Made by a program: the position numbers and the translations under genes. A stretch of DNA of 64,000 nt from Streptomyces sp. NBC_01775 (lineage in GTDB: Bacteria; Actinomycetota; Actinomycetes; Streptomycetales; Streptomycetaceae), in the NCBI RefSeq assembly GCF_035917675.1, contig NZ_CP109104.1, positions 5,208,001 through 5,272,000 of the forward strand. The letters are read 5' to 3'. The stretch's first letter is position 1. Each line of letters begins with the position of its first letter. The notes beneath the pieces are model-generated. The model made no database searches and had not been told where the DNA came from. It saw only the letters and a program-made list of their open reading frames with translations. Positions 58,502 to 59,564 of the stretch are shown one piece after another.

Positions 58502-59233
58502 GTGCCACACGCTGACGATGACGCCGCCGCCCGTACCTCCCGCCGTACGACCGCGAGTTCGACCGCCACACCCGCGCGCACGGCGACCACCCTCGACCCC
58601 GCCGCGATGCGCGCGCACTACCGCGCCGAGGGCCTCTCCGAGCAGCACCTGGAGCCCGGCCCGTTCGCGCAGTTCTCGCTCTGGTTCGCCCAGGCCGAGG
58701 CCAGCGGGCTGCACGAGCCCAACGCCATGATCGTCTCCACCGCCGACGAGCGGGGCCGCCCCAGCTCCCGCACCGTCCTGCTGAAGCGCTACGACGAGCA
58801 GGGCTTCGTGTTCTTCACCAACTACGGCTCCCGCAAGGGGCGCGAGCTGGAGGCGAACCCGTATATCTCCCTGCTCTTCCCCTGGCACGGCATCGCCCGC
58901 CAAGTGATCATCTCCGGCACGGCCGAGCGCACGGGCCGGGACGAGACGGCCGCCTACTTCCGCACCCGCCCGCACGGCTCCCAGCTGGGTGCCTGGGCGA
59001 GTGAGCAGTCCTCCCGCGTGGCCTCCAGGGAGGAGCTGGACCGGATGTACGCGCAGCTCGCGGCCCGCTATCCGGAGGGTGAGGACGTCCCGGCTCCCGC
59101 CCAGTGGGGCGGCTACCGCGTGCGCCCGGAGACGGTCGAGTTCTGGCAGGGCAGGGAGAACAGGCTGCACGACAGGCTGCGCTTTACCCGTACGGAGGAC
59201 GACGGCTGGGAGGTGGAGCGGCTCTGCCCCTGA
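58502..59233 (+). CDS. pdxH: Pyridoxamine 5'-phosphate oxidase
   Basis: PdxH uses FMN and O2 to oxidise pyridoxamine or pyridoxine 5'-phosphate to pyridoxal 5'-phosphate. The 243-aa protein has a 30-residue Thr/Ala/Arg-rich head and then [22 protein letters not shown]. The FMN-site segments [19 protein letters not shown] and [11 protein letters not shown] follow, and the ending [14 protein letters not shown]...WEVERLCP is the family's signature. GTG 58502 lies 6 nt after a CAAGAT -10-like hexamer, so the mRNA may be leaderless. ATG 58484 is an alternative. Confidence 0.94.
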
Positions 59234-59338
59234 GCGGGACCCCTGGAGCCGTGGGCCCGTGGGCCCGTGGAGCCGTGGAGCCCCGGAGCCCGAGGGGCAT
59301 CCGGGCAGCAGAACGGCCCGTGGGCTGCTCCCTCCGCC

Positions 59339-59355
59339 CCCAGCCTTCGGCTGGG
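59339..59355 (+). terminator. CCCAGCC-TTC-GGCTGGG hairpin after pdxH
   Basis: A 7-bp perfect stem within another copy of the CCCCCAGCCTTCGGCTGGGA repeat family, about 105 nt after the pdxH stop. A GAGCCGTGGGCCC-type simple repeat lies between them. Confidence 0.6.
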
Positions 59356-59463
59356 AGGTACCCCAAAGGGCGGAGGGCGCCGGTCGGACGAGTCCGACGA
59401 GCCCACGGGCCGGGTGACTGCTTGGATTGGCCGGCGAGCCGGCGTCACGCTGTGGCGTCGGCC

Positions 59464-59502
59464 CTAGGCCGCAGCCACCTCACACGTCCGGTGATTGATC
59501 AT
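59464..59502 (-). CDS. 12-codon leader-like ORF with an extreme ribosome-binding site
   Basis: ATG 59502 opens MINHRTCEVAAA, ending at TAG 59464-59466. Five nt upstream is GAAAGGAGGTGATCC (59508-59522), complementary over 15 nt to the 3' end of 16S rRNA, far longer than a normal Shine-Dalgarno sequence. A consensus-like promoter lies just before it. No co-directional gene follows, because pdxH converges from the other side. It could be an expressed micropeptide, a decayed leader, or part of a small RNA. Confidence 0.5.
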   Translation of the reverse strand: MINHRTCEVAAA

Positions 59503-59535
59503 CAGCCGGATCACCTCCTTTCCTGTGTGCCCCAC

Positions 59536-59564
59536 ACGCTAGGCACAGCTGTGGACCCGGGCAA
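59536..59564 (-). promoter_or_regulatory. Promoter of the tiny minus-strand unit
   Basis: Read leftward: TTGCCC (59564-59559), a 17-nt spacer, TAGCGT (59541-59536). The predicted transcript would start near 59529, only a few nt before the Shine-Dalgarno sequence. Confidence 0.55.

Follow-up and report, generated by a model that had tools for sequence, protein, structure and literature searches.

The window, by which we mean the whole 64-kb stretch of DNA analysed, contains a single Rfam match at gathering level: the actinobacterial small RNA Ms_IGR-5 (RF02471), found by covariance-model scan on the minus strand at 59528..59308 with 66.3 bits against a gathering cut-off of 45. The match runs the full length of the model (positions 1-184), as membership in the family requires. 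The MFE of 59528..59308 is -126.8, compared with -102.6 ± 4.7 for shuffled sequences (z = -5.10), and the MFE fold contains helices P1, P2, P3 and P4 and a terminator-like hairpin. The RNA is single-copy in its own genome (120 bits with a newly built model; the runner-up scores 13.6). An earlier note on this DNA had described a tiny unit of about 100 nt. That extent did not hold up: those nucleotides are the 5' part, about a third, of an RNA of about 221 nt that is structured and belongs to an Rfam family, two points which the note missed. Judged from its sequence, the locus is a stand-alone structured small RNA of RF02471, with the following features.

59536..59564, minus strand: promoter TTGCCC-17-TAGCGT (sequence; TANNNT and TTG upstream in nearer relatives; missed by a generic scan)
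59308..59528, minus strand: whole small RNA, Rfam RF02471 Ms_IGR-5 (Rfam score, MFE z-score, our own covariance model)
59524..59527, minus strand: 5' arm of helix P1, CACA (covariation, MFE fold)
59508..59522, minus strand: Shine-Dalgarno (SD) element GAAAGGAGGUGAUCC, complement of the 16S 3' end (exact match; at least 15 nt of Watson-Crick and G-U pairs in 172/180 loci)
59464..59502, minus strand: 12-codon ORF MINHRTCEVAAA*, ATG to TAG (sequence; equivalent ORF in 180/180 loci)
59485..59490, minus strand: 5' arm of the pseudoknot, CGGACG, codons 5-6 (covariation; GGAC alternatively pairs with the SD tail, P2, in nearer relatives)
59481..59484, minus strand: 3' arm of P1, UGUG, codon 7 and the first base of codon 8 (covariation, MFE fold)
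59471..59479, minus strand: 5' arm of helix P3, GGUGGCUGC, within codons 8-11 (covariation, MFE fold)
59413..59421, minus strand: 3' arm of P3, the linker GCAGUCACC (covariation, MFE fold)
59385..59390, minus strand: 3' arm of the pseudoknot, CGUCCG, in the loop of the terminator hairpin (covariation in relatives; pairs locally in its own MFE fold)
59314..59412, minus strand: terminator-like hairpin P5, without a U tail, bearing the pseudoknot loop (Rfam alignment, MFE fold; apical stem covaries in relatives)

RF02471 was detected in 54 of 61 genomes, its own included, in 88 of 396 genomes of the phylum at E 0.001 (50 of them above the gathering cut-off), and in none of 14 control genomes. R1, a covariance model built from 45 sequences of our own set, finds the RNA in 158 of the same 396 genomes at E 0.001, though its E-values are rough, and in 193 of 295 genomes of the class, with one copy per genome in nearly all rows listed. 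The RNA was missing from other families; twelve such genomes, searched again singly, gave a best E of 0.07. Among the matches listed, an IUPAC pattern of the deeper type hit records labelled Solirubrobacterales, Thermoleophilaceae, Conexibacter and Acidimicrobiia. Copies of this type also occur in metagenome-type records labelled Acidobacteriota and Chlamydiae (L228, L250), which are either mislabelled bins or copies from outside the phylum.

Comparisons were made over 180 loci, 120 found with RF02471 and 60 "held-out" loci found only with R1. The 120 leave out 19 weak sub-gathering genomes of the 88 and include 19 sub-gathering loci; of the 70 R1-only genomes (158 less 88), 60 were used, G201 and the nine weakest being left out. 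The model that found the held-out loci contains P1, P2, P3 and P5a, and neither the pseudoknot nor the ORF. For pair counts, nine duplicates were removed from the 120, leaving 111 distinct sequences, two of them without a loop anchor; the held-out structure test leaves out three loci (L169, L205 and L210) of the 60. Alignment A1 holds 57 diverse loci and alignment A2 45 of those. The sequences are related by descent, and comparisons with shuffles are not probabilities.

As the earlier note stated, pdxH converges on the RNA and no co-directional gene follows directly downstream, as a leader-peptide attenuator would have. There is no overlap: some 75 nt separate the end of the RNA from the pdxH stop at 59233. 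The four neighbours in the window were sought by tblastn in flanking sequence of at most 1.5 kb, less where a contig ended, and at least one of them was found in 52 of 120 loci and none in 68. A downstream, converging pdxH is present in 30 of the 120, a hand count in which genes may intervene; in L059 and L075 a partial pdxH match lies in the opposite orientation beyond a converging citA. Elsewhere a converging citA (in loci such as L009, L057, L064 and L066) or a SIS gene (L052) lies downstream. Locus L002, which is mycobacteria-like, has an upstream ORF resembling the aminodeoxychorismate-lyase type and a downstream one resembling a small fatty-acid-binding-like protein, as judged from the sequences of the two. 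We take these neighbours to be the equivalents of Rv0812 and Rv0813c. A literature search under the names of the two proteins found no sRNA report. Because neighbours differ between loci, the comparison indicates a stand-alone gene in changing surroundings, neither a leader nor tied to pdxH.

The likely +1 is the A at 59528, 7 nt downstream of the promoter TTGCCC-17-TAGCGT. This promoter, proposed in the earlier note, has elements that are kept in nearer relatives: in 92 distinct upstream stretches (L001-L092; raw counts), TANNNT lies within the final 20 nt before +1 in all 92 and at 6-7 nt from +1 in 89, and TTG follows the 17-18 nt spacing from TANNNT in 88. The 28 deeper loci have TANNNT in only 14 cases and TTG in 2 (raw counts). 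No sigma-70-type promoter and no U-tailed terminator were called at the locus by generic scans. Since the likely +1 puts the start of the 16S-complementary 15-mer at nucleotide 7, the element lies near the 5' end of the RNA, as had been claimed, and not at its very first nucleotide.

GGATCACCTCCTTTC occurs exactly once in the window, at 59508-59522 on the plus strand. Exact copies of this 15-mer in the genome number seven: six at 16S 3' ends (identified by eye from identical 16S-like preceding sequence) and this site, the only one outside them. On the minus strand it is the complement of the 16S 3' tail and a maximal Shine-Dalgarno sequence 5 nt ahead of the ATG at 59502, both as proposed earlier. 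With the 16S 3' terminus of this genome (..GGATCACCTCCTTTCT) as the reference for all 180 loci, uninterrupted complementarity of at least 15 pairs, G-U included, is found in 172 (112 of the first 120 and all 60 held-out loci). Strict Watson-Crick runs of at least 15 are found in 28 of the 120 and 3 of the 60, and the runs are shorter in 149 of the 180. The sole non-16S copy in the genome and the conservation across loci are the grounds on which we reject a chance 15-mer. These alignments demonstrate that complementarity to the 16S tail is conserved, which fits the suggestion of the earlier note that the RNA may capture 30S subunits.

The complement is followed by a reading frame in every locus. 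Here the ATG at 59502 opens a frame whose TAG ends at 59464; in all 180 loci there is an ORF of 10-17 codons that starts 3-12 nt past the SD and runs to one fixed structural stop. The start is ATG, GTG or TTG in 156 of 180, as against about 25 with shuffled loops; by set of loci, the shuffles predict any start in 38.0 of the first 120 and 17.7 of the 60 held-out loci, and a canonical start in 17.2 and 7.5, respectively. The frame of GAG GTG stops exactly five codons later in 119 of the first 120 loci (TAG 90, TGA 18, TAA 11) and one codon further on in the remaining one. A canonical start 3-12 nt past GGTG falls in the GAG GTG frame in 105 of these 120 loci and in the other two frames in 3 and 3; the distance from SD to GAG ranges from 27 to 38 nt, and the frame is nonetheless kept. 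The held-out loci, which R1 found outside its building set, have the ORF to the same structural stop in 60 of 60 cases, 51 with a canonical start. A near-cognate start (AUC, AUU, CUG, AUA or ACG) is required in 24 of the 180 loci. Near-cognate starts behind a maximal SD are mostly seen in deeper actinobacterial loci (L100, L105, L108, L113, L118, L203, L209 and others). According to PMC4633059, an AUU start is robust in mycobacteria.

The encoded peptide is far less constrained. Loop codons show 268 nonsynonymous and 82 synonymous single changes, a ratio of 3.27 where random change gives 3.87, in 284 close, non-independent pairs among 91 ORFs. Eight of the 60 held-out loci (L159, L167, L169, L180, L186, L195, L201 and L216) have the ORF in a different frame with respect to the GAGGTG motif; their predicted peptides are quite different, and start and stop are kept. 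A C-terminal T-x-E-V is common among the 145 distinct peptides (T in 126, E in 137, V in 137), and the residue before E-V, encoded by a P1 arm, is variable (R 50, L 37, C 16, V 15, S 12, P 6, E 4, others). Because ORF, start and stop are kept in all loci, the loop codons are near-neutral and eight loci have shifted frame, the pattern indicates that the frame is under selection and the peptide hardly so. A peptide that drifts within a kept frame suggests that the passage of a ribosome over the RNA, and not the peptide, is what matters. The earlier note had looked to conservation of the 15-mer, the promoter and the twelve codons in relatives as a sign of function; the complement (172/180), the promoter (in nearer relatives) and the ORF (180/180) are conserved, but the loop codons are near-neutral.

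Two minor features of the frame may be mentioned. In the frame-shifted group P1 is present and most members are shorter; no good pseudoknot was found there. GAGGUG, in codons 8-9 (59476-59481), is a second SD-like hexamer; it precedes the last sense codon by 6 nt, a distance at which it could hold a ribosome during termination.

The reading frame is threaded through a covarying fold. P1 joins nucleotides 2-5 to the four bases through the G of GAG, and in 111 distinct 5' ends its pairs 1-3 form in 109-110 and pair 4 in 81, or 410 of 444 paired cells compared with 310.7 ± 6.1 in shuffles. Its variants include CACG/CGTG, CACA/TGTG, CCAG/CTGG, CTTC/GAAG, CCGA/TCGG and CGTA/TACG, among others. In the held-out loci the pairs of P1, which was already in R1, form in 55-57 of 57 (for example CGAC/GTCG, CCAC/GTGG, CGAG/CTCG, CAAC/GTTG). 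P3 joins GGTGRCTGC to the linker GCAGTCACC, with compensations GGTGACCAT/ATGGTCACC, GGTGGCTAC/GTAGCCACC and GGTGGTTGG/CCAACC. Of its nine pairs, four are almost invariant. Pre-alignment counts lean towards P3, since the placement of the right arm was picked by pairing, whereas the count on the MAFFT alignment A2 is free of such biases.

The pseudoknot joins xGGACx to the loop of the terminator hairpin. The loop anchor was chosen regardless of pairing but needs TCC, so that the flanking positions are the only tests: the two most variable flanks pair in 80 and 85 of 109 loci, against 47.4 ± 3.6 and 49.0 ± 4.4 in shuffles. One position further out, one side gives 57 against 53.3 shuffled and the other is paired in 10 of 109. 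In the held-out loci, where the pseudoknot lay outside R1, own arms score 12.82 and swapped arms 10.78 ± 0.30 (maximum 11.58 in 200), and exact 6-mers are found in 22 of 57 loci against a swapped mean of 7.7 (maximum 16).

Taken together on A2 (45 sequences), P1, the pseudoknot, P3 and P5a pair in 91.5% of 1020 cells (shuffled, 80.2 ± 0.7) with 101 double-change cells (shuffled, 25.4 ± 4.1) and a covariation of 0.330, a value reached in 0 of 500 shuffles; slid controls attain at most 42.3% paired, 26 double-change cells and a covariation of 0.072. A variant with P2 has 92.8% of cells paired and 62 double-change cells. Unaided, RNAalifold returned the pseudoknot helix and P3 from A2; it gave P1 neither from A2 nor from the 5' domain alone, where it returned six pairs without covariation. 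P4 is predicted by folding alone, and the ORF stop would lie at its base.

Two other helices were considered. P2, which pairs GUCC of the SD tail with GGAC, was rejected as a universal helix: its four inner pairs are not clearly above shuffles, and only the next two are. Some held-out loci have UGAC, CGAC or AGAC in place of GGAC; there the terminator loop follows (GUGACC/GGUCAC, GCGACC/GGUCGC) and the SD tail is unchanged. Because the inner pairs are weak and these changes are tracked by the terminator loop and not by the SD tail, we keep P2 for nearer relatives only. The 5' helix printed by Rfam (14-19:55-60) has 84.8% of cells paired, equal to shuffles, and no compensatory double change in 45 sequences whose columns were mapped by hand. 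The RF02471 consensus printed by cmscan has no P1, P3 or pseudoknot, and a model of that type cannot hold a pseudoknot. The window RNA, a member of RF02471, differs from that consensus in these elements. The comparative counts give good support to the covarying fold, in which P1 and P3 are joined by a pseudoknot that pairs codons 5-6 with the terminator loop.

The linker can also pair elsewhere. Its GCAG (59418-59421) can pair with CUGC in the 3' tail (59308-59313) as an alternative to P3. Loci with GCAG have a matching tail of their own in 52 of 67 cases and other linker types in 4 of 34; for ACAG/CUGU the figures are 6 of 10 and 5 of 91 (10 of the 111 loci, in which no stem was found, are left out). 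This alternative pairing may serve as a lead, and its pattern may simply follow phylogeny.

A putative S. coelicolor counterpart of this RNA is scr4389. The excerpt of PMC8388888 does not name scr4389 among the conserved sRNAs. Other excerpts from the literature describe homologues directly: S. lividans SLIV_16488 is annotated through Rfam as this RNA with RNA-seq "yes" (PMC8079986), an S. avermitilis sRNA transcription unit matches Ms_IGR-5 in a study that mapped starts and ends (PMC8780764), and M. smegmatis ncMSMEG15794c overlaps IGR-5 (PMC10454040). PMC4974804 reports ribosome-protected reads on the M. abscessus and M. smegmatis homologues, and its authors caution that many classical ncRNAs are also footprinted. 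The Rfam hit line and the excerpts of the literature found, a scope that excludes the original description of Ms_IGR-5, give no function, ORF or 16S complement for RF02471.

We consider it reasonably probable that this is a ribosome-docking RNA in which translation of the short ORF opens the pseudoknotted core of the same RNA and the peptide is disposable. It is by SD pairing that the 30S subunit docks, and a ribosome in elongation melts the helices that it meets. The 5' region offers the 16S 3' tail a pairing partner of 15-16 nt and a start codon, and the codons of the ORF double as strands of P1, the pseudoknot and P3, with the stop at a fixed point by the base of P4. An initiating ribosome would have to unfold the core and would finish at the fixed stop; when initiation fails, the core would refold. 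Docking would be easy and elongation would have to break the core, so the conserved act would be docking, a short transit and a defined termination. The function would then be a switch between a ribosome-held, unfolded state and a folded one, which differ in whether the pseudoknot loop and the linker are free; the peptide would be a by-product. Candidate readouts are the holding back of 30S subunits, decay of the RNA, and pairing of a target with the freed linker. In this account the anatomy is well supported, and the transcription of homologues in two Streptomyces and the ribosome footprints on the mycobacterial homologues lend support from relatives; we infer translation of the ORF, the opening of the core by it, and a regulatory effect of translation rather than of the peptide. 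Against the reading stand the near-cognate starts in 24/180 loci, the local pairing of its own pseudoknot loop in the MFE fold, the failure of RNAalifold to give P1, the poor pseudoknot of the frame-shifted group, the strict Watson-Crick runs below 15 nt in 149/180 loci, and the footprints seen on classical ncRNAs in general.

The rival accounts each explain part of these data. A pure 30S decoy, which would sequester subunits through the 16S tail and use the start and stop codons only to stabilise or clear the complex, is unlikely in our estimate; the complement exceeds the usual SD length (172/180 with G-U) and the homologues carry footprints (PMC4974804), but a decoy by itself requires neither a fixed in-frame stop nor a covarying pseudoknot with the terminator loop. 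An ordinary trans-acting sRNA that base-pairs through the linker GCAGUCACC or the loop, with incidental translation, would agree with the stand-alone, one-copy gene, the conserved C-rich linker and an Hfq-based screen as the origin of the family (according to a title cited in PMC10454040). We regard it as quite unlikely, given that the linker is paired in P3 and that incidental translation leaves the kept start and stop unexplained.

The earlier note had also raised a micropeptide gene, whose function would lie in its 12-residue product, with the SD serving only to have it made. The ORF in 180/180 loci and the common T-x-E-V end speak for this; however, the conserved residues coincide with nucleotides of P1, the pseudoknot and P3, the P1-encoded residue before E-V varies, the loop codons are near-neutral, and eight of the 60 held-out loci encode unrelated peptides in another frame. 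We rejected the peptide as the product on these last two grounds, and a micropeptide gene in the usual sense seems very unlikely. Its third suggestion, an antisense regulator of pdxH, draws on the convergence of pdxH in this window, and the leader or attenuator of a following gene is a related idea. Both are extremely improbable: the RNA stops short of the pdxH ORF, the neighbours change (68/120 loci have none of the four, and pdxH lies downstream and converging in just 30/120), and no co-directional gene lies directly downstream here.

A bolder version of the docking model is offered tentatively, and we hold it to be possible but doubtful. By analogy the RNA could act as a "6S RNA of the ribosome", mimicking a perfect ribosome-binding site throughout the phylum. 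It would hold 30S under limiting initiation by pairing along the whole 16S tail, and would be opened and released by translation of the 10-17-codon ORF through the pseudoknot, thereby reporting or buffering initiation capacity. 6S RNA mimics the nucleic-acid substrate of RNA polymerase and is opened by short futile synthesis. The likeness is in function only: each RNA would imitate the nucleic acid on which a central machine works, here with the 30S ribosome and not RNA polymerase as the proposed target, and no homology is claimed. Leader-peptide attenuators and uORFs likewise have a short ORF whose translation regulates, but here no co-directional gene lies directly downstream and the peptide codons are unconserved. 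Extended SD motifs are linked with non-canonical starts in the excerpt on an arginine-sensing uORF of S. aureus (PMC13009471). The dual-function sRNA/mRNA IsrK (PMC4825925) resembles this RNA in having an ORF and alternative structures that affect 30S access; it is a prophage RNA with downstream genes, and no 16S-tail complement was seen in the excerpt.

The combination of a 16S-tail complement, a kept ORF with a drifting peptide and a pseudoknot that covaries and passes through the ORF appears to be new for RF02471. If translation of the frame is a switch, actinobacteria, antibiotic producers and mycobacteria alike, would have a general ribosome-run RNA device. The new structure also sharpens detection (158/396 phylum genomes with R1 vs 88/396 with RF02471). 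The Caulobacter sRNA CC2171 (RF01867), whose model carries the same GAAAGGAGGUGAUCC near its 5' end, scores 15.8 bits against a gathering cut-off of 75 at 59436-59530 (minus strand), so the window RNA is not a member of that family; CC2171 is possibly an independent alphaproteobacterial RNA of the same kind.
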